A DNA stretch of 63,144 nucleotides, from contig JAJQBO010000226.1 of assembly GCA_021203245.1 (NCBI GenBank), forward strand, positions 1-63,144, written 5' to 3'. Positions 4,980 to 53,683 of this stretch are shown here, piece by piece. Position numbers and translations under genes: made by a program. This DNA comes from Planctomycetaceae bacterium. GTDB lineage: Bacteria; Planctomycetota; SZUA-567. The notes under the pieces were generated by a model. That model did no database searches and was not told the origin of the DNA. It saw nothing but the letters and a program-made list of their open reading frames with translations. Within the stretch, counting starts at the first letter, position 1. Each line of letters begins with the position of its first letter.

Positions 4980-4985
4980 ACGACC

Positions 4986-9399: not shown

Positions 9400-9447
9400 C
9401 TACGTTTTCCGTTTGATTATCCGCCCTACAGATAATATAGTGAAATA

Positions 9448-13946: not shown

Positions 13947-13947
13947 A

Positions 13948-15213: not shown

Positions 15214-15827
15214 CGTCACCCCGCCACCCCCGCGAACGCGGGGGCCCGGCGGGCAGTTCAATAAGGGAACGGTGGGACATACCCATATAACCGTACACGT
15301 CACTGTCACTCTTATCGCTGCCGGGCCGCATCCACCGTCATCGTCCCCTCGGCGTGCAGGGCAAACGGCTTACGAATCCGGCCGCACCCACCGCCATCGT
15401 CACCCCGGCGTGCGGACCTCCATCAGCGGAAATAACAGGCGGTTCGGCCGGGGTCCACGCCAGGAACGGTGAGTACACCAAACTCTGGCGTTCTCCCCCC
15501 AATCTGCCCGGTTTAACCGCAAGGGCGAGGCAACCCCCACGCCGCGCGAACTGTTGCAAACCTTTTAAAATGTTTTTCCCGCACCCGCGTCCTCCTCTGC
15601 ATCCAACCGGGCCGCCCCAGGCCCGATTGAAAAGCGGGGCTGACATCGGGAATTCTCACTTAATTTTTTATAGTACGCAACTCCAATGATTATAGGCTGT
15701 TGAAGTAATTCACTTAATTACCGAATAAAAACCGCTTTACTAAGCCAAACCGTAGGATATACTGCCGTAAATACTTCAGAGTCGAGGCGGCGCGACGGCG
15801 GGGCTCTTTGCACTCCAGCAGGTTTTA

Positions 15828-15837
15828 AAAACGTTTT
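15828..15837. promoter_or_regulatory. AAAACGTTTT palindrome, possible operator
   Basis: A perfect 10-bp palindrome with a central CG step, as in many LacI-family operators, lies 10 bases upstream of the -35 box of the following promoter. The regulator is not encoded in this window. Confidence 0.3.
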
Positions 15838-15847
15838 GAAAAAGAGC

Positions 15848-15876
15848 TTGACTTTACCCCCGGTTCCGGGTCATAT
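15848..15876 (+). promoter_or_regulatory. Sigma-70 type promoter of the inositol-like operon
   Basis: TTGACT (15848-15853) and TCATAT (15871-15876) are separated by 17 bases, 122 bases upstream of the first start codon. It is the best promoter match in this gap. Confidence 0.5.
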
Positions 15877-15998
15877 GCAGGTATCTGACATCGTTGCCGG
15901 ACGCGCCGTGCCGAATAATCCACGCTCCTTCCCGGTCTGAAGCCGGGATCAGCTTGTGTCTGCAGTTTTTTGGAAAAACCACACCAGGAGAAATCACA

Positions 15999-17171: not shown

Positions 17172-17219
17172 GAAGGTCGGGAACCAGGGGAAAATACCTT
17201 TACTCACGAGGAACAGCAG

Positions 17220-32709: not shown

Positions 32710-33576
32710 TCAGCACTCCTTCCGCAGCCGCGGGTCGAGGACGTCGCGGAGCGCGTCGCCGGACAGCTGCAGCGAGAACACGGTCAGGACGATGAACAGC
32801 CCGGGGAACCACATGATCCACGGCGCTTTGCCGATATAGGTCTGGCCGGCGTTGATGATGCCGCCCCAGGTGGGGATTTCCGGGTTCACGCCCGCGCCCA
32901 GGTAGGACAGCCCGGCTTCGGCCAGGATGGCGTAGGCGAAGATAAAGGTGCCCTGGACAATGAGGGGGCTCGTGATATTGCGGAGAATATGCTGGACCAG
33001 GATGCGCGGCGTCGACACCCCGAGCACCCGGGCGGCGTCGACATAGGCGAGTTCGCGCACGACCAGGGTCGAGGCGCGGGCGACCCGGGCGACGCGGGGC
33101 GTGTAGACGATGCCGAGCGCTATCACCACGCTGGAGACGGACGGGCTCAGGACCGACATCAGGGTGATGGCGAGGAGGATGTCGGGGAAGGCCATCATGG
33201 CGTCGATGATTCGGTTGACGATCATGTCGACCTTGCGGAAATAGCCGCCGACGATACCCAGGATGGTGCCGAAGAAGCACGAGAACACCACGGTCAGGAA
33301 GCCGATGAGCAGACTCGTGCGGCCGCCCACGATGACGCGGGTGAACAGGTCGCGGCCGTATTCGTCGGTACCGAACCAGTTGACGGACGACGGCGGCCGC
33401 AAGCGCCGCGAGGCGCGGATGGCGGTGGCGCTGTGGGGCGACACCACGTCGGCGAAGACGGCCAGGAAGGCGATGACGAGGATGATCAGCAGGCATACCG
33501 CAACCGTTTTCCGCTGCCAGATGATGGAAAACGCTTTTTTGAGGATGCCGCCGTCGTCGGAGAGGCGATCAGACAT
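32710..33576 (-). CDS. dppC: Dipeptide-type ABC transporter permease, DppC
   Basis: The 288-residue protein has an N-terminal hydrophobic segment (KTVAVCLLIILVIAFLAVFA), the DppC-typical HWFGTDxxGRDLF-like block NWFGTDEYGRDLFTRV, and five further membrane segments. The EAA loop is seen around VRELAYVDAARVLGVSTPRI. It forms the channel with DppB. It lies one base before the amidohydrolase start and ten bases after the DppB gene. Confidence 0.94.
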   Translation of the reverse strand: MSDRLSDDGGILKKAFSIIWQRKTVAVCLLIILVIAFLAVFADVVSPHSATAIRASRRLRPPSSVNWFGTDEYGRDLFTRVIVGGRTSLLIGFLTVVFSCFFGTILGIVGGYFRKVDMIVNRIIDAMMAFPDILLAITLMSVLSPSVSSVVIALGIVYTPRVARVARASTLVVRELAYVDAARVLGVSTPRILVQHILRNITSPLIVQGTFIFAYAILAEAGLSYLGAGVNPEIPTWGGIINAGQTYIGKAPWIMWFPGLFIVLTVFSLQLSGDALRDVLDPRLRKEC

Positions 33577-33586
33577 GGTTGGCCTC

Positions 33587-34531
33587 CTAATATTTCACGC
33601 GCGGGTCGACGAGCAGGTACAGGATATCGACCGCGAGGTTGACGAGGACGTACGCGCCGGCGATGACCAACAGCGATCCGCCGATGACGGGATAATCGCG
33701 CCGCAGCACCGACGACACCACCAGGTTGCCGATGCCGGGGATGTTGAACACGGTCTCGGTCACGACCGCGCCGCCCAGCAGCAGGGCGAGGGTGAGGCCG
33801 ACGACGGTGAGGATGGGAATAAGTGCGTTCTTGAAGGCATGGCGCATGATGACCGGCCATTCGCCCAGGCCCTTGGCGCGGGCGGTGCGGATATAGTCGT
33901 CCTCGAGAATGTCCAGCATGGTGGTGCGGGTAAAGCGGGTGATGAGGGCGGAGTTCACCAGGCCCAGCACGATGCCCGGCAGGATCAGGTGATACATGCG
34001 GTCGAAGAATCCCGCGCCCGGGTCGCCGTAGCCGGAGGCCGGGAACCAGCCGAGCCGCACGGCGAAGAACTGGATGAAGACCAGGCTCATCCAGAAGCTC
34101 GGGGCCGAGGCCAGCAGCATGGCGACGGAGATCGTCGCCTGGTCGGTGATTTTGCCCCGCTTGTAGGCGGAGAGGATGCCGGACGGGATGCCGACCAGGC
34201 AGGCGATGACGATGGAGACTATCGTCAGGGCGATGGTCGGTTCGGCCCGGTCGGCGAGGATGCGCAGCACCGGCAGGCCGCCCAGGAAGATGGAGTTGCC
34301 AAGGTCGCCCTTGAGGATATCGCCGAGAAAGCCCAGGTATTGCGACCAGATCGATTCGTCCAGCCCCATCTTCGCCCTGAGGGCGGCGACGTCGGCGGCG
34401 GTGGCGTCGGGACCGAGCATGAGGCCGGCCGGGTCGCCCGGTATCATGCGGATGATGACGAAGGTGATGGTCGCCACCATGAACATGACGGCAATCATGC
34501 CCACCAGTCGTTTCAGGAGATAGATTTTCAT
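33587..34531 (-). CDS. dppB: Dipeptide-type ABC transporter permease, DppB
   Basis: The 314-residue protein opens with LLKRLVGMIAVMFMVATITF, the first membrane helix, followed by the usual periplasmic loop with LGLDESIWSQYLGFLGD-type sequence (here MGLDESIWSQYLGFL). The EAA motif is around YIRTARAKGLGEWPVIMRHA. There are six predicted helices. The ATG at 34531 is favoured by AGGA eight bases upstream; another ATG three codons earlier is possible. It lies five bases after the zinc dehydrogenase stop. Confidence 0.94.
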   Translation of the reverse strand: MKIYLLKRLVGMIAVMFMVATITFVIIRMIPGDPAGLMLGPDATAADVAALRAKMGLDESIWSQYLGFLGDILKGDLGNSIFLGGLPVLRILADRAEPTIALTIVSIVIACLVGIPSGILSAYKRGKITDQATISVAMLLASAPSFWMSLVFIQFFAVRLGWFPASGYGDPGAGFFDRMYHLILPGIVLGLVNSALITRFTRTTMLDILEDDYIRTARAKGLGEWPVIMRHAFKNALIPILTVVGLTLALLLGGAVVTETVFNIPGIGNLVVSSVLRRDYPVIGGSLLVIAGAYVLVNLAVDILYLLVDPRVKY

Positions 34532-34536
34532 GGGAG

Positions 34537-35595
34537 TCATCCTGAGGGAAGAGAGACGAACTGCGCCTTGACGCAGCGGGTTCTGTCGCCCGCGAAGGCG
34601 AAGGCTTCGGCCGCCTCCTCGAAGGGGAATTGGCCCGACAGCATCGGGAGCGGATCGATGCGCTTGTGCAAAAGCAGGGCGACGGCGGTCTCGAACTCGG
34701 TCGTGAACTGGCTCGAGCCGCGCACCTGCAGCTCCTTGGCGGTAAAGAAAACCCAGGGGACGGTCGCGCCCGTGACCGGCGCGGTGCCAAGCTGCACCAG
34801 CGTGCCGCCCTTCCGAAGGGCGTGCATCGCGCCGACGATGGCCGACGCCGCGCCCGAGGCTTCGATAGCGGCGTCGACGGGGCCGACCGCCCTGGCCATC
34901 GCTTCCGGGTCCATCCCGGCGGTGTTGACGCCCGTGTCCGCGCCCATCCGTTCGGCCACCTCCAGCGGCTGGTCGGCGATGTCCGTAATGGTGATACGGC
35001 CCGCGCCGGCGACTTTCGCGGCGGCGGCGGCAAGGATGCCGATAGGCCCCGACCCGGTGACAAGCACGCGCTTGCCGACCAGGTCGCCGGCCCGGAGCAC
35101 CGCGTGCAGCGAGCACGACAAGGGTTCGGCGAAGGCGAGGGCCGCCATGTCGGTGTCAGCCGGCACCGGAACGCAGCAGCGCGCTTCTGTTTCGAAATAC
35201 TCGCGGAAAAAACCTTCCACATGAGGGACGATCATGGCGGAGCAGGGAAAGCGCTTGTTTTCGCACAGATTGGCTTCGCCCCGGCGGCAGGGCATGCAGA
35301 CGCCGCACGGCATCACCGGGTTGACCGCCACCTTGTCGCCGGGCTGAAGGCCGGTGACGCCTGGCCCGACGTCGTCGACGCTGCCGCAGGCCTCGTGACC
35401 CATGCACAGCGGGTGTTGCAGCGGATAGCCGACATTGCCGAAATCGTGGTAGTAATGCAGGTCGCTGCCGCAGATGCCGCCGGCGGCGAATTTGACCCGC
35501 ACCTGGCCGGGCCGGAGCGGCGTGCGTTCGCGCCGTTCCACCACAGCGTCCTGCTTGCCCCGCAACACCAGGGCGCGGTAGGGAGTGTTGTCCAT
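34537..35595 (-). CDS. Zinc-dependent dehydrogenase, L-idonate 5-dehydrogenase-like
   Basis: The 352-residue protein is a medium-chain dehydrogenase. GICGSDLHYYHDFG and GHEACG hold catalytic zinc ligands, CGVCMPCRRGEANLC the structural zinc cysteines, and GSGPIGILAAAAAK the NAD(P) turn. The SDLHYYxxG pattern is characteristic of the L-idonate/sorbitol group. It probably oxidises a hydroxyl of a sugar acid or polyol. It is paired with a gluconate 5-dehydrogenase-like SDR, the same pairing as IdnD-IdnO, but here inside a peptide-type importer operon, so the natural substrate may be an amino-substituted relative of idonate. Confidence 0.82.
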   Translation of the reverse strand: MDNTPYRALVLRGKQDAVVERRERTPLRPGQVRVKFAAGGICGSDLHYYHDFGNVGYPLQHPLCMGHEACGSVDDVGPGVTGLQPGDKVAVNPVMPCGVCMPCRRGEANLCENKRFPCSAMIVPHVEGFFREYFETEARCCVPVPADTDMAALAFAEPLSCSLHAVLRAGDLVGKRVLVTGSGPIGILAAAAAKVAGAGRITITDIADQPLEVAERMGADTGVNTAGMDPEAMARAVGPVDAAIEASGAASAIVGAMHALRKGGTLVQLGTAPVTGATVPWVFFTAKELQVRGSSQFTTEFETAVALLLHKRIDPLPMLSGQFPFEEAAEAFAFAGDRTRCVKAQFVSLPSG

Positions 35596-39788: not shown

Positions 39789-40877
39789 ATGACCGACCCC
39801 CAACCCAACCGACCCGAATCACCCCAGCCCTCCGAAAACGAGGTCTGCGAAAAAGCCTGGCAACTCGCCCTGGCCGACAACCCCGACCTCGACCCGGGCC
39901 AGCGCCACCTCTTCTTCTACCCGCCCACCGCCACGCCCCCTTCGGGCGAGGCAGGCCGCTACTGGCGTGAAACAATTCGAGGCCGCTGGATAAAACAGGC
40001 CTATGCAGCCCTGACCGCGCCGAAGGAAGAGGAACCCGAATGGCAGGAAGAGGACGGGGCCGGGTCGTACCAGCGCCCCAACCCCACCGAGTACGAGGTG
40101 GGCATGCTGGCGTGGCGACTGGCCCGCCGCCACCTTCCGTCCATGCCGCTGCATTACCGGCGGCTGTTTGTCCCGAAAAAGCCGCAGCCCGCGTGGGTCG
40201 TCACCACCGATCCCTGGCGGCTCCAGACCTATGTTTTTTTCACCCGCATGGCCCGGGAACGGCTCACCTTTCCGGAGAGGTTCCAGTCGCTGAACCACGA
40301 CCTCGGCCCGGTCGCCCCCATCGCGCAGAAGCGCCACGACCGGTACTACCCGGTCCGCACCCCCACGCCGGAGGAGGTCCGCCGCAAGGCGCTGGCGCTG
40401 GACGACAATCCCTCTCTTCCTGCTGAATCCAGGCAGTTGTTCCACTATCCCGAATGGGTCGCGCCGCCCCCGGATCATCAGGGTGTCTATTGGCGCGGCG
40501 TCGTCAGGGGGTATTGGTTCAAGGCGGCACGGAATGCGTTGCAGCGGGAGTATAACGCGCAGCCGCGCGTCCGCATGCCGCAGCGGAAGAAGTTTCGCCG
40601 CCAGCCGAACCGCTACCGGTTCTGGACGCGGCAGCCGCTACAAAACGACCCGCCGCGTCAGAGGCGGCGGGTCGTTTTGTTGTCTCATCTCTGCGTTCGG
40701 TCCGCTGTCCCGCCGCCCCTGGTGGCGACCCGTCCGGGTGCGCCGCCGGGCCGGCCGTGGGAGGAGGGTACTCCCGCGCGGTTCCGGCTCCCGGAGGAAG
40801 ACAGGGCTCCGCACCCTTTCCCTTCGGGGCGGCCGGGCGGATTCGATTCCGCACAAGTCATGCTCTTTGACATGTGA
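39789..40877 (+). CDS. Uncharacterised protein with three internal repeats; 3' end runs through a terminator
   Basis: I do not recognise this protein. GGAGG precedes the ATG. Residues about 18-78, 98-165 and 192-252 are three copies of one unit. The first and third are clear: 'ALADNPDLDPGQRHLFFYP' against 'LALDDNPSLPAESRQLFHYP', and GRYWRETIRGRWIKQAYAAL against GVYWRGVVRGYWFKAARNAL. The middle one is diverged. No signal peptide or membrane segment is visible; it is basic and rich in Trp, Tyr and Arg. After about residue 283 the frame reads through a perfect terminator hairpin (40641-40679) and continues with low-complexity Pro/Arg sequence to 40877. The natural stop was probably before the hairpin and has been lost by mutation or sequence error. 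Confidence 0.6.
   Translation: MTDPQPNRPESPQPSENEVCEKAWQLALADNPDLDPGQRHLFFYPPTATPPSGEAGRYWRETIRGRWIKQAYAALTAPKEEEPEWQEEDGAGSYQRPNPTEYEVGMLAWRLARRHLPSMPLHYRRLFVPKKPQPAWVVTTDPWRLQTYVFFTRMARERLTFPERFQSLNHDLGPVAPIAQKRHDRYYPVRTPTPEEVRRKALALDDNPSLPAESRQLFHYPEWVAPPPDHQGVYWRGVVRGYWFKAARNALQREYNAQPRVRMPQRKKFRRQPNRYRFWTRQPLQNDPPRQRRRVVLLSHLCVRSAVPPPLVATRPGAPPGRPWEEGTPARFRLPEEDRAPHPFPSGRPGGFDSAQVMLFDM
40641..40679. terminator. Perfect 16-bp bidirectional terminator hairpin
   Basis: CAAAACGACCCGCCGC (40641-40656) and GCGGCGGGTCGTTTTG (40664-40679) form a perfect stem with a 7-base loop, with A-run and T-run ends. It can terminate transcripts from both sides: the hypothetical gene on the plus strand and the fumarase-dehydrogenase operon on the minus strand. 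It lies inside the open frame of the former. Confidence 0.8.
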
Positions 40878-40901: not shown

Positions 40902-42014
40902 TTACTTTTCCGGGCCGACCGGCTTCTTTTCGACCATGATCGTTTCGTAGTCGACGCCGCATTCGGTGGCGATGTCCATGATCTCCTGCAGCGACTTGTC
41001 GTGGATGGCCACGCCTTCCCAGTCCACCCGGCGTTTGGTCTTTTCTTCGACCTCGCCCTGGGTGCTGATGCGTTCGTGACCGGCGGCCTTGGCCGAGTCG
41101 CGGATTTCGTTCAGGTAGGTGGAGAAGTGGCCTTCGATCTCCTTCTGGTCCCCGAACATGCTGTAGTCGATAGCCATGAACATGTGGCAGCACTTGTCGA
41201 CGTTCGGCACTTCGCGGACGTGGTTGGAGGTGCAGCCGCCGGCGAAGACGCCGGTCATCAGCTCGACCATGAGCGAAATCGCATAGCCCTTGTGGCCGCC
41301 GAAGGTGGTGCCGAAGCCGCCGATCGGCAGCAGGCCGCCGTCCAGCTTTTCCTTGCGGATCTTCAGGAAGGTCTCGGGGTCGGTGTTGATCTGGCCGTCG
41401 GAGCCGACCGACCAGCCTTCGGGAAGCGGCTGGTTGTTGCGGGCATAGACTTCAATTTTGCCGGCCGGGACGACCGAGGTGGCGATGTCGAAGTGGAACC
41501 AGACCGGGTTCGCGGGCATGGTCAGGGCGATGGGGTTGGTGCCCATCATGGCGCGGCGGCCGAAGGTCGGCACGACCATGGCTTCGGAGTTCGTCATCAC
41601 CAGGCCCATCAGGCCTTCGCGGGCGGCCATCATCGAGTAGTAGCCGCCGATGCCGAAGTGGTTGGAGTTGCGGACAACCACCATGCCGATGCCCGACTTT
41701 TTCGCCTTGGAGATGGCGAGGCGCATCGCCTTGATGGCGGCGGGCTGGCCCATGCCGTCGTTGGCGTCGATGACGCCGGAGACGGGGGTCTCGCGGATCA
41801 GGCTGATTTCGGCGGTGGGGTTGATGCGGCCCAGCTTCATGCCCTGCATGTACATGCCCAGGCGCAGAATGCCGTGGGATTCGATGCCCATGCGGTCTGC
41901 CTCGAGCAAGACATTGGCCACGTCCTGCGCCTTGTCCGGAGACAGACCCTGCGTTTCCATTACCGCCTTGACCAGGTTTTTCAAGCTCTTTACATCAAAT
42001 CGTCTCCGGCTCAT
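40902..42014 (-). CDS. Malate/L-lactate dehydrogenase family (Ldh2/MDH2-type) oxidoreductase
   Basis: The 370-residue protein belongs to the family of NAD(P)-dependent malate, lactate, sulfolactate and ureidoglycolate dehydrogenases that differ from classical Rossmann MDH. ADRMGIESHGILRLGMY contains the catalytic histidine; VVVRNSNHFGIGGYYSMMA and GHKGYAISLMVELMTG are family blocks. The ATG at 42014 with AAAGGAAAG is preferred; the frame is open upstream to the fumarase beta stop. In an operon with fumarase the most likely reaction is oxaloacetate to malate, the step before fumarate. Lactate or sulfolactate remain alternatives. Confidence 0.88.
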   Translation of the reverse strand: MSRRRFDVKSLKNLVKAVMETQGLSPDKAQDVANVLLEADRMGIESHGILRLGMYMQGMKLGRINPTAEISLIRETPVSGVIDANDGMGQPAAIKAMRLAISKAKKSGIGMVVVRNSNHFGIGGYYSMMAAREGLMGLVMTNSEAMVVPTFGRRAMMGTNPIALTMPANPVWFHFDIATSVVPAGKIEVYARNNQPLPEGWSVGSDGQINTDPETFLKIRKEKLDGGLLPIGGFGTTFGGHKGYAISLMVELMTGVFAGGCTSNHVREVPNVDKCCHMFMAIDYSMFGDQKEIEGHFSTYLNEIRDSAKAAGHERISTQGEVEEKTKRRVDWEGVAIHDKSLQEIMDIATECGVDYETIMVEKKPVGPEK

Positions 42015-42251
42015 GGTTCTTTCCTTTGTGTGCAATGGTTGCATTGGTTGTTGTACTTCAGACGGTTCCGTTGCCCCTGATGGTCCATCCTGTTGCGTTG
42101 GTTCCGCTTGCTGCGTTTGTCCCGCGTGTTCGTCGTGCGGGTGGGTCGTTTCGATCGGTGCGGCGTCTGCCGGGTTGAGCGGCGCGTCCGCTTGGGCTTG
42201 TCCTGTCCCGGCATCGCGGGCGGCGGTTTTTTTTGCGGCTCTTAGCCACGG

Positions 42252-43813: not shown

Positions 43814-43956
43814 CTCTACCCCTTGTGCAAACGGTTTTTAACAGTTGATAGTGGTATGGATACTCTACAACTTGGGCGGGGCCGCGGGACGGACGTGCCT
43901 TCCGTGCCGGGCATTCAGTAATTCTTTATCAATAGTTTTTTATCAATATGTCTTAC

Positions 43957-43984
43957 AGTATAACACTTTCGGGTACTTCGTCAA
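43957..43984 (-). promoter_or_regulatory. Sigma-70 type promoter of the fumarase operon
   Basis: On the minus strand TTGACG (43984-43979) and TATACT (43962-43957) are spaced by 16 bases, 144 bases upstream of the fumarase alpha start. Confidence 0.7.
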
Positions 43985-44140
43985 GTCAAATTAGTAATAA
44001 AATATTGATATAAAAATATTGATTTAAAAGGAGTTGGCGGCTCGTTCGCCTAAATTTCCCTCCTGCTTGGGTTTTCGCACCAAGGTATGGATATAAAATT
44101 ATTGATATGGATATATTGATAAAAAAATATCGATTTGGTA

Positions 44141-44169
44141 TTGACAAGGCCGACGCTATAGTGTATTGA
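44141..44169 (+). promoter_or_regulatory. Candidate promoter of the Hdr-Flx operon
   Basis: TTGACA (44141-44146) and TATTGA (44164-44169) are spaced by 17 bases. Both overlap TATTGATA-type boxes. The start codon of hdrB is 355 bases downstream, so a long untranslated leader would result. Confidence 0.5.
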
Positions 44170-44524
44170 TTAAATATCTCTTAAAGGCACCTACCGGCAG
44201 TTTTCGAAATTGCGTTTCTCCTTTCGTTTGTTGCGTATTTTATTCGTTATTTTTGCCAAATTCGGCTGCTATGAAATGTAGCTAGTGGCTGGATATCGCG
44301 ACGGAATTGTCGACTTGGCAGACAGATATGGGATATGGCAACAATATCCGCGTCGGCGTTGTGTTATCGTTAATTCGGTAAACCCCGCCCGAAGCTCTGA
44401 AACGGGAAATGGCAATTTCCATAAAATCCCGTCCGCCGCGTTCCGGGAACGCGGCGTGTGGAATACCGTACGCTCTTGTAGGGCAGGGGTGTTGTCTGTC
44501 CTAGCCGCCTGAAAGCACACGACC

Positions 44525-45340
44525 ATGAACTATTACCCGGGTTGTACCTTGAAGACAAAGGCGCGGCAACTCGACACGTGCGCCCGAAACGCGGCCGCCG
44601 CCCTGGGGGTCGACCTCCAGGAACTGCCCGAATGGCAGTGCTGCGGGGCTGTTTATCCGCTCGCCCGCGACGAAATCGGCACAAAGTTGTCGTCGGTGCG
44701 CGCCCTTGCCGCCGCCCGCGACAATGGGGGCGAGTTGGTCACCCTCTGTTCCGCCTGTCATCACGTCATCAAGCGAGTCAATGACGACATGGCGAACGAC
44801 GATCTCATCCGCACCCGCGCCAACAACTACCTGCAGCTTCCCCAGCCCTATGCGGGCGAGACCAAGGTCATTCACTACCTTGAAATGCTCCGGGACACAG
44901 TCGGCTTCGCCGCCATCAAGGAAAAGGTTCAGAACTCCCTCGGCGGCAAGAAAGTGGCGGCGTACTACGGCTGCCTCCTGCTCCGGCCCAGCAAGGTCAT
45001 GCAGTTCGACAAGCCGGACAACCCGTCCATTGTCGAAGACCTCATCGCCGCCATGGGCGGCGAGCCGGTGAAGTTCCCGAAGCGGAGCCAGTGCTGCGGC
45101 GGCTACGTCACCCTCGGCAACAAGGAAGGGGCGCAGGCCCGCACCGAGGCGGTCCTCGCGTCGGCGGCGAAGAGCGGGGCAGAACTCATCCTCACCGCCT
45201 GCCCGCTGTGCCTCTACAACCTGACTCAGAACGCCACCGAGACCACGGTCCCGGTCAAATACTTTACCGAGGTTTTGGCCGAAGCGCTTGGCGTGCCGGC
45301 CGAGGCCGAAGCCGGGAGGGCTTGCGCATGCACTCACTGA
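44525..45340 (+). CDS. hdrB: HdrB-like heterodisulfide reductase subunit B
   Basis: The 271-residue protein has two CCG domains: the first with YYPGC, ELPEWQCCGAVYPL and LCSACHHV; the second with YYGCLLLRP, RSQCCGGYV and TACPLCLYN. These cysteines bind the noncubane [4Fe-4S] clusters that split disulfides in methanogen HdrB and its bacterial homologues. Bacterial partners may be DsrC-like proteins or small thiols. It is the first gene of an eight- to nine-gene operon and overlaps hdrC by 13 bases. No clear ribosome-binding site stands immediately before the ATG. Confidence 0.92.
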   Translation: MNYYPGCTLKTKARQLDTCARNAAAALGVDLQELPEWQCCGAVYPLARDEIGTKLSSVRALAAARDNGGELVTLCSACHHVIKRVNDDMANDDLIRTRANNYLQLPQPYAGETKVIHYLEMLRDTVGFAAIKEKVQNSLGGKKVAAYYGCLLLRPSKVMQFDKPDNPSIVEDLIAAMGGEPVKFPKRSQCCGGYVTLGNKEGAQARTEAVLASAAKSGAELILTACPLCLYNLTQNATETTVPVKYFTEVLAEALGVPAEAEAGRACACTH

Positions 45341-45714
45341 ATCCCGCCCGCGACATTGAACGCATCTCCGGTATCAACGCCCGCCGCTGCATGCACTGCG
45401 GCAAATGCAGCGCCAGTTGCCCCGCCTTCCACGAGATGGACATCCACCCGCACCAGGTCGCGGGCATGGTCGCCGACGGCGATATCGAAGGGCTTGCGAA
45501 CTGCAAGACCCTGTGGCGCTGTTTGTCCTGTTTCGCCTGCGTCGAACGTTGCCCCCGCGACGTCCAGCCCGCCAACCTCATTGAGGCGGTGCGGCTCTGG
45601 CAGATTCGCCGTTCGGGTGAAAACCACATGCATCCCCAGGACATCCCGGAAATGCTGGACGACGAACTGCCGCAGCAGGCGATTGTCTCGGCCATGCGGA
45701 AATACGCGAAATAG
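45328..45714 (+). CDS. hdrC: HdrC-like subunit with two [4Fe-4S] clusters
   Basis: The 128-residue protein carries two ferredoxin motifs, CMHCGKCSASCP and CLSCFACVERCP, in the arrangement of HdrC. It passes electrons between HdrA and the HdrB active site. The ATG at 45328 is set by GGAGG at 45315-45319 and overlaps the end of hdrB, so translation is coupled. A heptad-repeat element follows before hdrA. The separate HdrB and HdrC genes match the HdrABC form rather than HdrDE fusions. Confidence 0.92.
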   Translation: MHSLNPARDIERISGINARRCMHCGKCSASCPAFHEMDIHPHQVAGMVADGDIEGLANCKTLWRCLSCFACVERCPRDVQPANLIEAVRLWQIRRSGENHMHPQDIPEMLDDELPQQAIVSAMRKYAK

Positions 45715-45723
45715 GTATGAGGT

Positions 45724-45848
45724 GAATTCGTGAATGCACAATTCACAATGCACAATTATGAAAGACAATTCAGCAATTTTACAATGTGCGAACGCGTCAA
45801 CGATGTTGCGGTAATCATTGTGAATTATGAATTGTGAATTATGAATTC
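45724..45848. repeat. Heptad-repeat hairpin element, copy 3
   Basis: The left arm ATGCACAATTCACAATGCAC, continuing with AATTATGAA (45733-45762), and the right arm ATTGTGAATTATGAATTGTG, continuing with AATTATGAATTC (45817-45848), are tandem 7-base units in inverse orientation around a core of about 55 bases. Both ends carry GAATTC. It lies between hdrC and hdrA. Confidence 0.78.
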
Positions 45849-45887
45849 AATTTTCAGTTCCACCCTAATCAAGGGGGATAACGTATC

Positions 45888-47876
45888 ATGCATAGAATCG
45901 GCGTATTTGTCTGCTGGTGCGGCTCGAACATCGCCGCGATCGTGGACGTCAAGGCGGTGGCGGAAGCGCTCGGCAAGGAACCCGGCGTCGTCTTTTCCAT
46001 GGATTACCAGTATATGTGTTCCGAAGGCGGGCAGGGTGCCATCCGCGCCGCCATCAAGGAACACGAACTGACCGGCATTGTCGTCGCGTCGTGCTCGCCG
46101 CGCATGCACGAAAACACCTTCCGCAAGGCCGCCGCAGCCGCCGGGCTGAACCCGTTCCTGGTGGAAATCGCCAACATCCGCGAGCAGTGCTCCTGGATTC
46201 ACCGCGACAAGACGGACGCGACCGAAAAGGCCCTTATCCTCGGCCGTGCCGCCATCGCGAAGCTGATGCTCAACACGCCGCTCCAGGCGGGCGAGAGCAA
46301 GGTCGTCAAGCGCGCCCTGGTTATTGGCGGCGGCATCGCCGGTCTCCAGACCGCCCTCGACATCGCCGACGCCGGTTTCAAGGTCGACGTGGTTGAGCGG
46401 AAGCCCACCATCGGCGGCAAGATGGCGCAACTGGACAAGACCTTCCCCACCCTCGACTGCGCCGCGTGCATCCTGACGCCGAAGATGGTGGAAGCGGCCC
46501 AGCACGAAAACATCACCCTCCACACCTATTCGCAGGTGGAGGCGGTCAGCGGCTTTGTCGGCAACTTCACCGCCACTATCCGCAAAAAAGCCCGCTATGT
46601 CGACGAAAAGGCCTGTACCGGCTGCGGCGACTGCATGGCCAAGTGCCCGTCCAAAAAGGCGAAGAGCGAGTTCGACCAGGGCCTCAAGAACCGCCCGGCC
46701 ATCTATATCCCCTTCGCCCAGGCCATCCCGAACGTCCCGGTCATCGACACGACGGAATGCATCAAGTTCAAGACCGGCAAGTGCGGCATCTGCCAGAAGA
46801 TTTGCCAGGCCAAGGCGGTCGATTACGAACAGCAGGACACGGTCTTTAAAGAAAGCTATGGCGCTATTATCGTCGCCACCGGCTTTGACACGATGTCGCC
46901 GGACAAGTACGGCGAATTTCACTACGAGGAATACCCGGACGTCATCACCTCGCTCGAGTTCGAGCGCCTCTGCAACGCGGCCGGCCCAACCGGCGGCCAC
47001 CTCGTGCGTCCGTCCGACCACAAGGAACCGAAGAAGGTGGTGTTTGTCCAGTGCGTCGGTTCCCGGAACGGCGGCGACTGCGACGGCAAGACCTATTGCT
47101 CGAAAATCTGCTGCATGTACACGGCCAAGCACGCGATGCTGACCCGCGAGAAGTATCCGGACTCCGAAGTCTATGTCTTCTACATCGACGTCCGCACCCC
47201 GGGCAAGAACTTCGACGAGTTCCAGCGCCGCGCCATCGAGCAGTACGACGTGCATTATATCAAGGGCATGGTCGGCCAGGTGGAGCAGAACGGCGATACC
47301 CTCACTGTCCAGGCGTCGGACCTCCTGAACGACAAGCAGATTATCCTTGACGCCGACCTGGTCGTCCTGGCGATGGCGGTCCAGCCCGAGGAAGGCGCGC
47401 GCGCCATCGGCACGATGCTGACCGCGAGCATGGACACGAACGACTTCTTCACCGAAGCCCACCCCAAGCTCCGCCCGGTGGAAAGCCCCACCGCCGGCAT
47501 CTTCCTGTCCGGCCTGTGCCAGGGGCCAAAGGATATCCCCGAGACGGTGGCGCAGGCGGGCGCGGCCGCGTCAAAGGCCATCGGCCTCCTCGCGAAGGAC
47601 CACCTGGTCACCAATCCCTGCGTGGCCGGCTCGTCCAACAGCCTGTGTAACGGCTGCTCGATGTGCGAAAACGTCTGCCCCTACGGCGCGATCGGCTATG
47701 AAGACCAGCAGGTGGTCCGGGACGGCAAGCGCGTCATGGCCCGTCAGGCGGTCGTCAACGAAGCGGTGTGCCAGGGCTGCGGCGCCTGCACCGTGACCTG
47801 TCCCTCGGGCGCGATGGATCTCAAGGGATTCTCGACCCGGCAGATTTTGGCGGAGGTTGATGCGATATGTCGATAG
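45888..47876 (+). CDS. hdrA: HdrA-like flavoprotein subunit
   Basis: The 662-residue protein starts with the HdrA signature IGVFVCWCGSNI. A cysteine-containing segment, then FAD-binding VIGGGIAGLQTALDIADAGF (about 144-163), KTFPTLDCAACILTPKM, and two ferredoxin modules (CTGCGDCMAKCP near 245 and CNGCSMCENVCP plus CQGCGACTVTCP near the C-terminus) follow. HdrA is the bifurcating flavin subunit in methanogens: one electron path to ferredoxin, one to HdrB. AGGGGG precedes the ATG. Its stop overlaps the flxD-like start. Fused C-terminal ferredoxins are usual for bacterial HdrA of Flx-Hdr type. Confidence 0.95.
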   Translation: MHRIGVFVCWCGSNIAAIVDVKAVAEALGKEPGVVFSMDYQYMCSEGGQGAIRAAIKEHELTGIVVASCSPRMHENTFRKAAAAAGLNPFLVEIANIREQCSWIHRDKTDATEKALILGRAAIAKLMLNTPLQAGESKVVKRALVIGGGIAGLQTALDIADAGFKVDVVERKPTIGGKMAQLDKTFPTLDCAACILTPKMVEAAQHENITLHTYSQVEAVSGFVGNFTATIRKKARYVDEKACTGCGDCMAKCPSKKAKSEFDQGLKNRPAIYIPFAQAIPNVPVIDTTECIKFKTGKCGICQKICQAKAVDYEQQDTVFKESYGAIIVATGFDTMSPDKYGEFHYEEYPDVITSLEFERLCNAAGPTGGHLVRPSDHKEPKKVVFVQCVGSRNGGDCDGKTYCSKICCMYTAKHAMLTREKYPDSEVYVFYIDVRTPGKNFDEFQRRAIEQYDVHYIKGMVGQVEQNGDTLTVQASDLLNDKQIILDADLVVLAMAVQPEEGARAIGTMLTASMDTNDFFTEAHPKLRPVESPTAGIFLSGLCQGPKDIPETVAQAGAAASKAIGLLAKDHLVTNPCVAGSSNSLCNGCSMCENVCPYGAIGYEDQQVVRDGKRVMARQAVVNEAVCQGCGACTVTCPSGAMDLKGFSTRQILAEVDAICR

Positions 47877-48304
47877 CGAACGAAGACGTCAAAACCAAGC
47901 CGCTGATCGTGGCCTTTTGCTGCAACTGGTGCAGCTACGCCGGGGCCGATCTGGCCGGCACCAGCCGCCTGACGTACCCTGCGGACGTCAAGATTATCCG
48001 CGTGCCCTGTTCCTGCCGCGTCAACCCCATGTTTATCCTCCGCGCCTTCCAGCGCGGGGCGGACGGGGTCATTATCGCCGGCTGCCACCCCGGCGACTGT
48101 CACTACACCTCTGGGAACTACTTCGCCCGCCGCCGGATGTCACTCCTGTTCAGCATGCTGGACTACTTGGGCATTGAGCGCCAGCGCACCCGGGTCGAGT
48201 GGATTTCCGCCGCCGAAGGCAGCAAGTTCGCGAAGACCATGTCCGAATTCGCCGAACAGGTTGCCGCCCTGGGCAAGCCGAACCATTTGGGGGAACTGCG
48301 CTGA
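47867..48304 (+). CDS. flxD: MvhD/FlxD-like [2Fe-2S] subunit
   Basis: The 145-residue protein contains FCCNWCSYAGADLAG, VPCSCRVNP and GCHPGDCHYTSGN, the conserved cysteines of the methyl-viologen hydrogenase delta subunit. In methanogens it links hydrogenase to HdrA; in Flx-Hdr complexes it links the NADH module to HdrA. It overlaps hdrA by 10 bases and shares TGATG with the next gene. Confidence 0.93.
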   Translation: MSIANEDVKTKPLIVAFCCNWCSYAGADLAGTSRLTYPADVKIIRVPCSCRVNPMFILRAFQRGADGVIIAGCHPGDCHYTSGNYFARRRMSLLFSMLDYLGIERQRTRVEWISAAEGSKFAKTMSEFAEQVAALGKPNHLGELR

Positions 48305-49302
48305 TGAGCATACAAGACAAAATCCTCGCCCGCGCCAAGGAGCTCATGGCGGACGGCACAGTCACGAGCGTGCTTGGCTGGAAAAAGGGTGAAACGTATA
48401 CCGACCCCAGCCCCGCCTTCTTCACCTCGGTCGAAGAGCTGGAGCGCGACTTTATTTTCAACCACTTCTGCGGGCAGAACCTTTCCCGTCTCCTGAACGG
48501 CCGCAAGGCCGAGGACGGCAAGGTGCTGATGCTGTGCAAGCCTTGCGACGCCTTCAGCCTGAACCAGATGCTCGGGCAGCACCGGCTTGAACGGGACTCC
48601 GTCTATGTCCTGGGCATTCCCAGCCCCACTATCCTGGATGCTGACAAGCTTCGCGCCGCCGGCATAAAGGGGATTCGCGGCTCGCGGTTCGCCCGTGGCG
48701 GCGAGGTCGTCCTCGACACCCTCTATGGCGAAAAGCGCATCGCCGGCAAGGACGCGGTCCTCGAGAAATGCCTCTCCTGCAAGACGCACAAGTTCCCCGT
48801 CTCCGACGAAATTCTGGTCAAGCCGAAGGGCGAGGAACACGACGAGCCGGAAAACCCCTACCGCTTCGCCGGGGTCGAGGAACTGGAAACGATGACGCCG
48901 GACGAGCGCTTCGCCTTCTGGCAGTCGCACCTCAAGCGCTGCATCCGCTGCAACGCCTGCCGCAACGCCTGCCCGGTCTGCGCCTGCGTCAAGTGCGTGT
49001 TCGACAATCCGGGGTCGGAAGTGGCGGGCAAGTCCAACATCGACGCCTTCGACGACAAGCTTTTCCACGTCATCCGGGCCTTCCACGTTGCCGGCCGCTG
49101 CACCGACTGCGGCGAATGCAGCCGGGCCTGTCCGGAAGGGATTCCGCTGCACCTGCTGAACCGGAAGTTCATCAAGGACATCAACCGGATCTACGGTCCG
49201 TTCCAGGCCGGCGCGTCGGACGACGGCGTGTCGCCGCTGACCGAATACAACACGGAAGACATGGAACCCGGCGAAGCCATCCTCAAAGGGAGTGGAAGCT
49301 GA
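48304..49302 (+). CDS. Iron-sulfur protein of the Flx module (FlxB/C-type)
   Basis: The 332-residue protein has an N-terminal FrhB-like or dehydrogenase beta-like region (MLCKPCDAFSLNQML and CLSCKTHKFP) and a C-terminal ferredoxin-like domain with CIRCNACRNACPVCACVKC and CTDCGECSRACPEG. It is one of the two polyferredoxin-type proteins between FlxD and FlxA in flxABCD-hdrABC clusters; I cannot tell with certainty whether it is the B or C member. Start and stop overlap both neighbours (TGATG and ATGA), indicating a coupled complex. It probably wires electrons from the NADH flavoprotein to FlxD/HdrA. Confidence 0.85.
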   Translation: MSIQDKILARAKELMADGTVTSVLGWKKGETYTDPSPAFFTSVEELERDFIFNHFCGQNLSRLLNGRKAEDGKVLMLCKPCDAFSLNQMLGQHRLERDSVYVLGIPSPTILDADKLRAAGIKGIRGSRFARGGEVVLDTLYGEKRIAGKDAVLEKCLSCKTHKFPVSDEILVKPKGEEHDEPENPYRFAGVEELETMTPDERFAFWQSHLKRCIRCNACRNACPVCACVKCVFDNPGSEVAGKSNIDAFDDKLFHVIRAFHVAGRCTDCGECSRACPEGIPLHLLNRKFIKDINRIYGPFQAGASDDGVSPLTEYNTEDMEPGEAILKGSGS

Positions 49303-50351
49303 TGAAAAAGATTTCGACAGAAAAGCTCCCGCTGCTCTACGCCGCCCTGAACGGCGACCGGCAGCTCTGGATTCCCGTCCAGGACGGGGATCGGGTCGAG
49401 TTCGGTTTGTGGCGGGAAGGCGCGGCCGTGAACCTCGCCGGCAAGACCCTGAAGAGCGGCAAGGATTTCTTCTTTCCGCAGAACGAGGACTTCGTCTCTT
49501 TCCAGAAGGAAGGCAAGAAGATAACCATCACCGAAAAGAAGCGCCCGACCGACGAGTTCGTTGTCTTCGGGATGCGCGGCTGCGACCTGGCCGGCCTTGA
49601 GGTCCTGGACCTCGTCTTCCTGGCCGAGCCGAAGGACAGCTTCTACGAAGCGCGCCGTGGGGCAGGCGTCATCGTCACCCTCGCCTGCGGCACGCCTGAC
49701 GAAAGCTGCTTCTGCACCGCCTTCGGCGTGAACCCGGCCGAACCCAAGGGCGACGTCGCCGCGTGGCTCGTCGGCGACACGCTCTACTGGAAGCCCACGA
49801 GCGACAAGGGCGAAAAACTCACCGCCGAATTGGGCAGCCTCCTCGAGGACGCCGGCGCGGACGGCGACAAAGCGGTTGCCGAACAACAGGCCGCCATTGC
49901 CGACATCCTTAAACAACTTCCCAACACCGAACTCGAACTGCCGAAGGTCGGCGACGCCGAGTTCGATGCGTGGTTCGAGTCGCCCAACTGGGCGAAGATG
50001 GCGGAAAGCTGCCTCGGCTGCGGCACCTGCACCTTTGTCTGTCCCACCTGCCAGTGCTACGACATCCAGGACCGGGACACCAAGGACGGCATCCGCCGCT
50101 TCCGCTGCTGGGATTCATGCATGTATTCGGACTTTACCCTGATGGCGCACGGCAATATCAGGAACACCCAGATGCAGCGCTTCCGCCAGCGTTTTATGCA
50201 CAAGCTGGTCTATTTCCCGCAGAACAACGACGGCAAATACTCCTGCGTCGGCTGCGGCCGTTGCGTCGAGAAATGCCCGTCGTCACTCAATATCGTCAAG
50301 GTCATCAAAGCCATGCAGGCCATGGAAGCCATGGAAGGGGTGGGCAAATGA
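49302..50351 (+). CDS. Iron-sulfur protein of the Flx module, AsrA-like
   Basis: The 349-residue protein resembles anaerobic sulfite reductase subunit A and FlxB/C-type proteins. An N-terminal part with FVVFGMRGCDLAGLEVLD and CGTPDESCFCTAFG, then two [4Fe-4S] motifs CLGCGTCTFVCPTCQCYD and CVGCGRCVEKCP. It probably docks to the following AsrB/FlxA-like flavoprotein and carries electrons. Its start overlaps the previous stop and its stop overlaps the next start (ATGA), so stoichiometric synthesis with neighbours is likely. No sulfite-reductase catalytic subunit (AsrC) is nearby, so sulfite reduction is not indicated. Confidence 0.87.
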   Translation: MKKISTEKLPLLYAALNGDRQLWIPVQDGDRVEFGLWREGAAVNLAGKTLKSGKDFFFPQNEDFVSFQKEGKKITITEKKRPTDEFVVFGMRGCDLAGLEVLDLVFLAEPKDSFYEARRGAGVIVTLACGTPDESCFCTAFGVNPAEPKGDVAAWLVGDTLYWKPTSDKGEKLTAELGSLLEDAGADGDKAVAEQQAAIADILKQLPNTELELPKVGDAEFDAWFESPNWAKMAESCLGCGTCTFVCPTCQCYDIQDRDTKDGIRRFRCWDSCMYSDFTLMAHGNIRNTQMQRFRQRFMHKLVYFPQNNDGKYSCVGCGRCVEKCPSSLNIVKVIKAMQAMEAMEGVGK

Positions 50352-51208
50352 GCGGCTGCTCCTGCGGTACTAACACCACCGCCACGAAGGATATGCTGAT
50401 CCCGATGCTGGGCGTGGTGACGAACATCAAGCAGCAAACGCCGGACGTGCAGACCTACCGGGTCGAGGCTCCGGGGGGCGGTGTCGTTTTCCCGCACCTG
50501 CCGGGCCAGTGCGCCATGGTGTCGGTGCCGGGCGTCGGCGAGGCGATGTTCTCCATCACCTCCAGCCCGACCAACACCGAGTACATGGAATTCTCGGTCA
50601 AGCGCTGCGGCATGCTCACGGACTACCTGCACCATATGGACGCAGGGCAGGAGGTGACGGTGCGCGGCCCCTATGGCAACAACTTCCCGGTTGAGACCGA
50701 GCTGAAGGGGAAAGACCTTCTCTTCATCGCCGGCGGCATCGGCCTTGCGCCCCTGCGCTCGGTCATCAACTACGTCCGCCACAACCGCAAGAACTACGGC
50801 ACCGTCGACATCGTCTACGGGTCACGTTCGGCCGCCGACCTCGTCTATTTGGATGAAATCAAGAACGAGTGGGACGGCAAGGACGACGTCAAAGTTCACC
50901 TCACCATCGACCGCGAGGAAGACGGCTGGGACGGCCACGTCGGCTTTGTCCCGAACTATGTCAAGGAACTGGCGTTCCCCCCGACCAAGACGGTGCTGGT
51001 CTGCGGCCCGCCAATCATGATCAAGTTCGTCCTCCAGGCCCTGCAGGAAATGGGCTTCGCCAAGACGCAGGTCTACACCACCCTGGAACTGCGGATGAAG
51101 TGCGGCATCGGCAAGTGCGGCCGCTGCAACATCGGTCCCAAATACGTGTGCCGCGACGGCCCGGTTTTCCGCTGCGACGAACTCGACGAGATACCGGACG
51201 AGTACTAG
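50348..51208 (+). CDS. flxA: FlxA/AsrB-like NAD(P)H flavoprotein
   Basis: The 286-residue protein has a ferredoxin-NADP reductase-type fold: FAD-binding MFSITSSPTNTEYMEFSVK, NAD-binding FIAGGIGLAPLRSVINYV and CGPPIMIKFVLQAL. A C-terminal [2Fe-2S] motif CGIGKCGRCNIGPKYVC of the PyrK/AsrB type follows. It is the likely entry point for NADH. The N-terminus MSGCSCG is cysteine-rich. It ends with tandem TAG stops and is followed by a heptad-repeat element. In Flx-Hdr complexes this subunit oxidises NADH and passes electrons to HdrA through the iron-sulfur proteins and FlxD. Confidence 0.88.
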   Translation: MSGCSCGTNTTATKDMLIPMLGVVTNIKQQTPDVQTYRVEAPGGGVVFPHLPGQCAMVSVPGVGEAMFSITSSPTNTEYMEFSVKRCGMLTDYLHHMDAGQEVTVRGPYGNNFPVETELKGKDLLFIAGGIGLAPLRSVINYVRHNRKNYGTVDIVYGSRSAADLVYLDEIKNEWDGKDDVKVHLTIDREEDGWDGHVGFVPNYVKELAFPPTKTVLVCGPPIMIKFVLQALQEMGFAKTQVYTTLELRMKCGIGKCGRCNIGPKYVCRDGPVFRCDELDEIPDEY

Positions 51209-51231
51209 TAGAAGCGTAGTCATTATTGTTC

Positions 51232-51354
51232 GAATTCACAATTCACAATTCACAATGCATAATTATGAACCACAATGATCCAATGGTCCAATTGTCGCAT
51301 TGATGAATTGGTGTAATAATTGTGAATTATGAATTGTGAATTGTGCATTATTAA
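51232..51354. repeat. Heptad-repeat hairpin element, copy 4
   Basis: The left arm GAATTCACAATTCACAATTC, continuing with ACAATGCATAATTATGAA (51233-51268), and the right arm ATTGTGAATTATGAATTGTG, continuing with AATTGTGCATTA (51318-51351), are 7-base unit arrays around a core of about 50 bases. It lies between flxA and the fumarate-reductase-like iron-sulfur gene. Confidence 0.78.
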
Positions 51355-51368
51355 AGAATGGACTCACT

Positions 51369-52055
51369 ATGGAAACGACGCCGCAAAAAATGGTCCACGT
51401 CTATATCATGGGGAAACGCTACGAGGTGCCTTCGACCCTCACCATCATGGGCGCGTACGAGTACGCGGGCTACAGGCTGGTGCGCGGCTGCGGCTGCCGT
51501 AACGGCTTCTGCGGCGCATGCGCCACCATCTACCGCATCGCCGGCGACCGCGAGCTGAAGGTCTGCCTCGCCTGCCAGACGGCGGTCGAAGACAACATGT
51601 ACATCGCCTCGCTGCCGTTCTTCCCGCTTGTCAAGGAACTCTACGACATCGAAAAGGTGCGCCCCACCGAACAGATCATGATGCAGCTCTATCCGGAAAT
51701 CTACTCCTGCATCGGCTGCAACGCCTGCACCAAGGCTTGTACCCAGGACCTGAACGTGATGCAGTACATCGCCCATGCCCAGCGGGGCGAGTACGACGTC
51801 TGCGCCGAGGAGTCCTTTGACTGCGTCATGTGCGGCGTCTGTTCGTCCCGGTGCCCGGCCGGCATCTCGCATCCGCAGGTGGCGCTCCTCGCCCGCCGCC
51901 TCACCGGCAAGTACCTGGCTCCCGAGTCGAAGCACCTCACGAATCGCGTGAAGGAAATCGACAACGGCGACTTCAACGAGCTCATCGCCAATCTCATGGG
52001 CAAGCCGCTGGAAGAAATCAAGGAACTCTACAATAACCGCGAAATCGAGGTGTAG
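51369..52055 (+). CDS. Fumarate reductase/succinate dehydrogenase-like iron-sulfur subunit
   Basis: The 228-residue protein has an N-terminal [2Fe-2S] ferredoxin domain (RGCGCRNGFCGAC with a further CLAC about 25 residues on) and a C-terminal dicluster domain (CIGCNACTKACTQDLNV and CVMCGVCSSRCPAGISH). The plan is that of SdhB/FrdB and of the N-terminal part of TfrB of methanogen thiol:fumarate reductase, but the CCG domain of TfrB is absent, and an HdrB is encoded separately at the head of the same operon. The ATG at 51369 is the first start clear of the repeat element. It precedes the flavoprotein gene by 17 bases. Confidence 0.9.
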   Translation: METTPQKMVHVYIMGKRYEVPSTLTIMGAYEYAGYRLVRGCGCRNGFCGACATIYRIAGDRELKVCLACQTAVEDNMYIASLPFFPLVKELYDIEKVRPTEQIMMQLYPEIYSCIGCNACTKACTQDLNVMQYIAHAQRGEYDVCAEESFDCVMCGVCSSRCPAGISHPQVALLARRLTGKYLAPESKHLTNRVKEIDNGDFNELIANLMGKPLEEIKELYNNREIEV

Positions 52056-52072
52056 CGAAAGGGGGTGCCGAG

Positions 52073-53683
52073 TTGTACACACAGGAAATGTTGGATTCCA
52101 TCGCCAAGGTTGAAGCGGCCCGCAAGGACAATATCGCCGCCACGCCGCGCCGCATGACCGCCGAGGAAAAAAGCGACCTGCTGGCGAAGTTCCACCCGGA
52201 CTACCGTCCCGACAAATTCATGAGCCTGTCGATCGGCCCGAACAAGGGCGAAAAGGTGCCGCTCGAACTCGGCGCGCTTCTCCAGGGCCGCAGCCGCGTC
52301 CTCGACCTGAACGTCGACCTGAACCACCCCGACTACGACGTCGACGTCCTCGTCATCGGCGGTGGCGGTTCCGGATCGTCTGCCGCCATCGAGGCCCACG
52401 AGGCGGGCGCGAACGTGATGATGGTCACGAAGCTGCGTATCGGCGACGCCAACACCATGATGGCCGAGGGCGGCATCCAGGCGGCTGACAAGGAAAACGA
52501 CTCCCCCGCACAACACTATCTCGACGCCTTCGGCGGCGGCCACTACGCCGCCGTCCCCGAACTCCTCCGCAAACTCGTCTGCGACGGCCCCGGCGCGGTG
52601 CAGTGGCTGAACAAACTGGGCGTGATGTTCGACAAGGACGAGAACGGCGTCATGATCACCACCCACGGCGGCGGCACCAGCCGCAAGCGCATGCACGCCG
52701 CCAAGGACTACTCCGGGGCGGAAATCATGCGCACCCTCCGCGACGAAGTCCTCAACCGCCAGATCCCGGTGGTCGACTTCACCGCCGCCATCGAACTGAT
52801 TCTCGACGACAAGGGCCGCGCCGCCGGCGCTGTCCTCATGAACATGGAGACCGAGGAAATCATGGTCGCCCGGGCCAAGGTGGTGGTCATCGCCACCGGC
52901 GGCGCGGGGCGGATGCACTACCAGGGCTTCCCCACGTCGAACCACTACGGCGCGACCGCCGACGGTCTGGTGCTGGCCTACCGGGCCGGTGCGCGGCTCC
53001 TCTACCAGGACACGCTGCAGTATCACCCGACCGGCGTCGCCTTCCCGAACCAGATTTTCGGCGCGCTGGTGACGGAAAAAGTGCGTTCGCTCGGCGCGAA
53101 GCTGGTCAACCGCGAGGGCGTGGTCTTCATGCATCCCCTGGAAACGCGCGACGTCTCGGCCGCGTCCATCATTCGCGAGTGCAACGAACGCAAGCTCGGC
53201 CTCGAGACCACGGACGGCCTCGGCCTGTGGCTGGACACTCCGATGATCGAAGCCATTCACGGCGCGGGCGCAATCGAGAAGCGCATCCCGGCGATGCTCC
53301 GCATGTACTCGAAGTACGACATGGATATCCGCGAAAAGCCGATTCTCATCTACCCGACCCTGCACTACCAGAACGGCGGCATCCGCATTTCGGCGGACGG
53401 CCAGTCGGACATTGAAAACCTGCTGGTGGCAGGGGAAGCGGTCGGCGGCATCCACGGCCGCAACCGCCTGATGGGCAACTCCCTCCTCGACATCATCGTC
53501 TTCGGCAGAAACGCCGGCCAGGAGGCGGGCCGCCGCTACAAGAACATCACCCCCGGCACGCCCAACCTCAATCACGTGGACAAATACGAGTCCATGCGCC
53601 GCGAGGCAGGCATCGAGACGGCGAACGCCAGCCCGATGCTGCTGCCTGATTACACCCGCAGGCGGGAAGCGGTGGCGAACTAG
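52073..53683 (+). CDS. Fumarate reductase-like flavoprotein, no membrane anchor partner
   Basis: The 536-residue protein belongs to the SdhA/FrdA/NadB family: VLVIGGGGSGSSAAIEAHEA (FAD), MAEGGIQAA, the LQYHPTGVAFPN active-site block and GRNRLMGNSLLDIIVFGR. At the position where membrane FrdA/SdhA carry the flavin-linked histidine the sequence reads GDANTMMAEGG, with Asn127, so FAD is probably not covalently bound. A TTG at 52073 with AAAGGGGG is the likely start; an ATG five codons later is possible. No cytochrome b-type anchor gene follows; a terminator does. The probable reaction is fumarate to succinate in the cytoplasm. Aspartate oxidase is the main alternative, but the pairing with an iron-sulfur subunit argues against it. 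Confidence 0.87.
   Translation: MYTQEMLDSIAKVEAARKDNIAATPRRMTAEEKSDLLAKFHPDYRPDKFMSLSIGPNKGEKVPLELGALLQGRSRVLDLNVDLNHPDYDVDVLVIGGGGSGSSAAIEAHEAGANVMMVTKLRIGDANTMMAEGGIQAADKENDSPAQHYLDAFGGGHYAAVPELLRKLVCDGPGAVQWLNKLGVMFDKDENGVMITTHGGGTSRKRMHAAKDYSGAEIMRTLRDEVLNRQIPVVDFTAAIELILDDKGRAAGAVLMNMETEEIMVARAKVVVIATGGAGRMHYQGFPTSNHYGATADGLVLAYRAGARLLYQDTLQYHPTGVAFPNQIFGALVTEKVRSLGAKLVNREGVVFMHPLETRDVSAASIIRECNERKLGLETTDGLGLWLDTPMIEAIHGAGAIEKRIPAMLRMYSKYDMDIREKPILIYPTLHYQNGGIRISADGQSDIENLLVAGEAVGGIHGRNRLMGNSLLDIIVFGRNAGQEAGRRYKNITPGTPNLNHVDKYESMRREAGIETANASPMLLPDYTRRREAVAN

Follow-up and report, generated by a model that had tools for sequence, protein, structure and literature searches.

Boxes in 14-bp steps between divergent fumarase and Hdr-Flx-fumarate reductase operons of a planctomycete are probable operators of a variant Rex repressor

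Introduction

The canonical Rex operator (ROP) reads TTGTGAA-N4-TTCACAA, that is, TTGTGA-N6-TCACAA. DNA binding by Rex takes place with NAD+, and NADH releases the repressor (PMC8376106, PMC8836258). In the Rex-DNA structure from T. maritima, the recognition motif reads the conserved G of the half-site through its first Arg and the last A through its Lys (PMC8836258), while in the S. agalactiae complex residue 47 makes water-mediated base contacts (PMC8376106). The published motifs TTGTTANNNNNNTAAC (PMC5886521) and TTGTGAANNNNTTCACAA (PMC6391272) share the half-site-N6-half-site layout. The nearest published half-site that we found belongs to the Thermoanaerobacter/Thermoanaerobacterium motif TTGTTANNNNNNTAACAA, in which TTGTTA is one base apart from TTGATA and the spacer is again 6 bp; these sites, located at adhE, adhA and hydrogenase genes, are single inverted repeats, and a 14-bp lattice is not described for them (PMC5886521). 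The rex and adhE promoters of Streptococcus mutans carry two Rex sites each, but the available portion of that report does not describe half-site sharing in a fixed 14-bp lattice (PMC3441419).

Here we analyze a box array in a 63,144-nucleotide stretch of planctomycete DNA (the window). The array and its candidate regulators resemble the Rex/ROP system in having half-sites about a 6-bp spacer, the conserved G and final A, the Arg/Lys pair of the recognition helix, an NAD(H)-binding Rossmann domain in the candidate proteins, and redox-metabolism targets. They differ from it in the half-site (TNGATA rather than TTGT(G/T)A), in the joining of half-sites into chains, and in the protein, where the recognition helix ends in ..TG with T, I or S at contact residue 47 instead of the ..FG and Ala of ROP-binding Rex. 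No description of a TNGATA Rex operator, a planctomycete Rex or chained Rex operators was found in the open-licence literature, in which the principal comparison of Rex motifs, Ravcheev 2012, was represented through citations of it. Rex control of redox genes is already known; what appears to be new is the TNGATA half-site, the association of that half-site with a Rex clade, and the arrangement in chains.

Results

The gap between the fumarase start (43813, minus strand) and the HdrB-like start (44525, plus strand) contains ten in-phase 8-bp boxes, arranged in three clusters of 3, 3 and 4 with exact 14-bp steps. The array and its surroundings are as follows.

40902..42044, minus strand: malate/L-lactate dehydrogenase family (Ldh_2), Pfam PF02615
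42252..42842, minus strand: fumarase beta-type subunit, Pfam PF05683
42971..43813, minus strand: fumarase alpha-type subunit, encoded at the head of the leftward operon, Pfam PF05681
43913..43948, minus strand: cluster 1, boxes 43913, 43927 and 43941, within the fumarase (leftward) transcript leader
43957..43984, minus strand: predicted leftward (fumarase) promoter, TTGACG, 16-bp spacer, TATACT
43989..44024: cluster 2, boxes 43989, 44003 and 44017, directly upstream of the fumarase -35
44086..44135, plus strand: cluster 3, boxes 44086, 44100, 44114 and 44128, directly upstream of the hdr operon -35
44141..44169, plus strand: likely rightward (hdr) promoter read from the sequence, TTGACA, 17-bp spacer, TATTGA
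44525..45340, plus strand: HdrB-like protein with two CCG domains, encoded at the head of the rightward operon
45888..47876, plus strand: HdrA-like protein, best NCBIfam match HdrA2, under its cut-off
47867..48304, plus strand: FlpD-domain electron-transfer protein, Pfam PF02662
49970..51208, plus strand: FAD/NAD-binding electron-input subunit (Flx-like), Pfam PF00175, PF10418 and PF00970
51336..52055, plus strand: iron-sulfur subunit, fumarate-reductase-like
52073..53683, plus strand: fumarate-reductase-like flavoprotein

The original prediction had placed seven boxes in this gap, all of which we recovered. Five are exact copies of TATTGATA, two of them reading on the minus strand (43927, 43941) and three on the plus strand (44003, 44100, 44114), and the others are TATTGATT at 44017 and TATCGATT at 44128. 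Three additional boxes in exact 14-bp phase, at 43913 (ATTCAGTA), 43989 (AATTAGTA) and 44086 (TATGGATA), enlarge the array. Since the box consensus is the near-palindrome TAYYRRTA, the earlier description of the left cluster as inverted holds for the central TTGA but not for the 8-mer as a whole. Also present are the two extra boxes placed over the -35 and -10 elements of the rightward promoter (44139, TATTGACA; 44164, TATTGATT), but they lie off the 14-bp lattice and resemble promoter hexamers. A promoter scan also lists an alternative hdr promoter, TTGGTA-16-TATAGT (44135-44162).

That AT-richness alone would not produce this regularity was borne out in several ways. TATTGATA occurs five times in the 63-kb window against 0.20 expected matches. 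Paired boxes (TATTGAT-N7-TATTGAT, at most one mismatch) number five in the 4.09-Mb assembly, every one in the fumarase/hdr gap, and the reversed-pattern control gave none. In each of the four gaps tested, lag 14 ranked first both for repeated 7-mers and for autocorrelation, with P <= 0.002 against block shuffles preserving local AT-richness.

We compared seven genomes of the genus (G000 to G006), of which G000, G005, G001 and G003 bear the boxes. The divergent fumarase/hdr arrangement and the boxes are common to G005, G001 and G003; G005 proteins share 94-98% identity with their counterparts in the window, and the G005 copy of the locus is split over two contigs. Boxes were not found in G002, G004 or G006, whose fumarase is not divergent with hdrB. 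The box-bearing genomes form two diverged lineages, G000/G005 and G001/G003, with HdrB ~71-74% identical between them. The gap sequence differs between the lineages, yet the boxes remain at aligned positions around the fumarase promoter (TTGACA-16-TATACT in G001/G003), and box substitutions, such as TATTGATA versus TATCGGTA, preserve TAYYRRTA. Across all seven genomes, exact TAYYRRTA-N6-TAYYRRTA pairs are confined to the four gaps. A lattice that is unique in the genome and conserved together with the divergent arrangement supports the earlier proposal of one regulator for both operons. The step within clusters is fixed at 14 whereas the distance between clusters varies, suggesting local interaction rather than a fixed loop.

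These comparisons bear on a structural or mutational origin of the array, in which AT-rich promoter DNA underwent tandem 14-bp duplication and no dedicated regulator is involved. The spacers are AT-rich, and some of the 14-mers could stem from duplication. However, the boxes persist in two lineages while their surroundings diverged, the seven genomes hold no further exact pair, and the block shuffles that retain local AT content do not reproduce the pattern; we regard this origin as very unlikely. Two observations from the comparisons are recorded separately. A match in G013 from the first search of relatives fell in an apparent coding region instead of a promoter and was rejected. In G006 (C131 and C223; loci L036 and L148), the fumarate reductase gene is followed, on the same strand, by fumarase, and the hdrB promoter is a near-consensus TTGACA-17-TAATAT without boxes, a natural contrast case.

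Control by an FNR/CRP-type protein through TTGAT half-sites would draw on the TTGAT element that the box shares with the FNR/CRP site TTGAT-N4-ATCAA, and on the anaerobic character of the genes. The spacing and orientation of half-sites in the gap differ from that site, and the regulator is mostly missing: no CRP/FNR-type HTH exceeds the family cut-off in G000, G003 or G005, three of the four box-bearing genomes, whereas full CRP-type matches occur in two boxless congeners. The original exclusion of FNR therefore stands, and we give this type of control almost no credence.

A triple-box search of 392 Planctomycetota genomes, designed without any regulator in view, gave matches outside the genus in ~20 genomes, mostly repeat-like or isolated. 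Two of the outside arrays (G078:C245:7551-7614 and G356:C82:102586-102621) each lie directly upstream of a rex gene. By rough arithmetic (~120 rex genes, ~1.8 Gb), the chance of a random match falling <=300 bp upstream of rex is ~2 in 100,000. Further rex promoters of the same family carry two GATA boxes at a 14-bp step, for example AATGGATA-TAAATA-TATCCATT and GATAGATA-GGTTTA-TATCCAAT. Box-N6-box is the layout of a Rex operator (half-site, 6-bp spacer, half-site). The original prediction had stated that the boxes do not match Rex spacing and had left the regulator unnamed; neither point finds support, given this geometry and the same boxes at rex promoters of other planctomycetes, which point to Rex.

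We then surveyed 119 planctomycete rex promoters, classing each Rex by the end of its recognition helix as ..FG (as in B. subtilis), ..TG or other. Exact TNGATA-N6-TATCNA was present in 9/31 promoters of ..TG rex genes and 0/51 of ..FG genes (Fisher 7e-5); the nine promoters represent seven genera, so these counts are not fully independent, and the motif class was defined after part of the rex promoters had been inspected. Exact TNGATA/TATCNA pairs in rex promoters occurred at spacer 6 only, with spacers 2 to 12 scanned. Conversely, the canonical TTGTKA-N6 motif was found within one mismatch in 12/51 FG promoters versus 1/31 TG promoters. One clade of 35 proteins (SH-aLRT 96 in the tree) contains nine of the ten Rex proteins whose genes have GATA operators, together with both Rex proteins of the genus, Rex-A and Rex-B. 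Three-box chains were present at four rex promoters, and all four of the encoded proteins fall within this GATA clade. The Arg/Lys pair of the recognition helix is retained in Rex-A and Rex-B. Residue 47 is Ala in 37/51 FG proteins, while 28/31 TG proteins have T, I or S.

Some individual loci deserve mention. The GATA-site Rex outside the clade is that of L283 (G007:C37), where a perfect AATCGATA-N6-TATCGATA pair lies ~280 bp upstream of rex; this pair may belong to another gene. In L263 (G078:C245:1-18000), a gene cluster (7551-17432) is headed by a rex gene whose promoter carries a GATA chain of five boxes; further members encode NuoE- and NuoF-like proteins, a protein with [FeFe]-hydrogenase and PAS domains, a SpoIIE-domain protein and a radical SAM/BATS protein. 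L377 (G298:C4) and L381 (G249:C12) have back-to-back rex genes with one canonical-type operator (TTGTGAAACTAATCACAG) common to both.

Applied to the 63-kb window, the rex-derived motif has five sites within one mismatch, one of them exact, and all are in the fumarase/hdr gap; shuffled gaps held a mean of 0.03 sites and a maximum of 1. When spacers from 2 to 12 were allowed in the gap, five sites fell at 6, one at 4 and two at 12. Each of the sites at spacer 6, listed below, is a predicted Rex-type operator (TNGATA-N6-TATCNA).

43929..43946: one mismatch
44005..44022: one mismatch
44088..44105: one mismatch, overlapping the next operator
44102..44119: one mismatch, overlapping both neighbours
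44116..44133: exact match TTGATAAAAAAATATCGA

No canonical Rex site with TTGTGA or TTGTTA half-sites occurs in the gap within two mismatches; having TNGATA half-sites instead, these would be variant Rex operators. Inverted symmetry is exact at one site and within one mismatch at four, and the quasi-palindromic boxes blur direct versus inverted order. Rex usually controls several targets, and it counts against Rex that exact box pairs marked no further target in the genome. Among the one-mismatch outliers elsewhere in the genome, those whose contexts were read proved mostly to be solitary and in long open frames, and the outliers were set aside. Look-ups in viral and plasmid sequences gave four viral stretches and no plasmid match.

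Many TATTGA half-sites in the gap run direct, not inverted, which counts against Rex, and the boxes within a cluster mostly read one way. This order would suit a different DNA-binding protein, for example a small MerR/excisionase-like one, that binds head to tail on 14-bp direct repeats and coordinates both operons, and HTH_17 proteins are common in genomes of the genus. Such a protein is nevertheless an unlikely occupant, because it leaves unexplained the lattice before rex genes, the tracking of that lattice with the Rex clade, and the palindromic pairs at rex promoters. BldC/excisionase-like HTH_17 genes were tried as candidates and were uninformative, being numerous both in genomes with boxes and in those lacking them.

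For Rex, the genus offers two candidates. G000 encodes Rex-A (G000:C251) and Rex-B (G000:C156), both above the cut-off of the Rex equivalog NCBIfam NF003994 and both with Rex structures as their best PDB matches. Rex-A is present in 7/7 genus genomes. Rex-B is present in 3/4 box-bearing genomes and 0/3 boxless ones, a distribution that favours Rex-B as the acting paralog; against this we weigh the incompleteness of assemblies and the failure to find Rex-B in G003, which has the array in an assembly 83% complete. The rex-A and rex-B promoters of the genus that we examined have no boxes and give no sign of autoregulation, which also counts against the Rex reading.

Discussion

Taken together, we propose, with a probability of roughly 0.78, that the boxes are chained, overlapping operators of a GATA-type Rex repressor that couples the fumarase and Hdr-Flx-fumarate reductase genes to NADH/NAD+. 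This repressor, an NAD(H)-sensing homodimer, would bind adjacent boxes as TNGATA-N6-TATCNA. The near-palindromic form of each box allows it to act as a half-site for two adjoining operators, such that n boxes provide n-1 overlapping sites. If two dimers need one and the same box, the overlapping operators would not all be filled at once; in that case the chain may increase effective affinity or permit dimers to assemble one after another.

At low NADH/NAD+, Rex would sit beside the hdr -35 and around the fumarase promoter, keeping both operons off. As NADH accumulates, Rex would be released and the NADH-consuming malate-fumarate-succinate route made, so that the electron sink would come on when needed. 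The placement of the clusters relative to the predicted promoters suits a repressor, with clusters 2 and 3 upstream of the -35 elements and cluster 1 covering ~+2 to +37 relative to the predicted fumarase start. Judged from their sequences, the target genes would interconvert malate and fumarate (fumarase, beside the Ldh_2-family dehydrogenase) and reduce fumarate, with electrons passing via the FAD/NAD reductase, Hdr and the FlpD-like module. Their fit to an NADH-controlled electron sink counts in favor of Rex.

More tentatively, and at slightly less than even odds, a Planctomycetota Rex clade may have changed its code from TTGTGA to TNGATA through the helix end and residue 47, and may use 14-bp chains of shared half-sites, on which dimers compete or assemble, to grade or sharpen the NADH response at a bidirectional promoter.

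With the Rex reading, a promoter array that is otherwise an orphan gains a regulator class, and a prediction follows for the control of fumarate reduction in uncultured planctomycetes. The clade would also provide a natural specificity switch within a well-studied repressor family, open to swap mutants, and searches with canonical TTGTGA will miss Rex regulons in lineages carrying GATA-type proteins.

The origin of the rightward operon was also considered. No other genus among the 392 Planctomycetota genomes has the Hdr-Flx-fumarate reductase operon (44525-53683) at a similar level, and the nearest relatives of HdrB outside the genus are clostridial (60-69% identity), which suggests horizontal transfer. 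Among the clostridial relatives of the hdr operon, fumarase is near hdrB in 1/80 loci and is of a distant type. A canonical Rex site within one mismatch is present in just 5/78 of their promoters, so inherited Rex control is not demonstrated. Comparison of loci across the genus revealed no conserved regulator gene adjoining the operons.

Elsewhere in the window, the long ORFs at 33263-35224 and 39789-40877 (653 and 362 aa) have no Pfam match. Positions 1-11400 resemble a mobile element, being rich in short ORFs whose third-position GC is low, one of which (near 9208-9351) is an excisionase-like HTH_17 gene.
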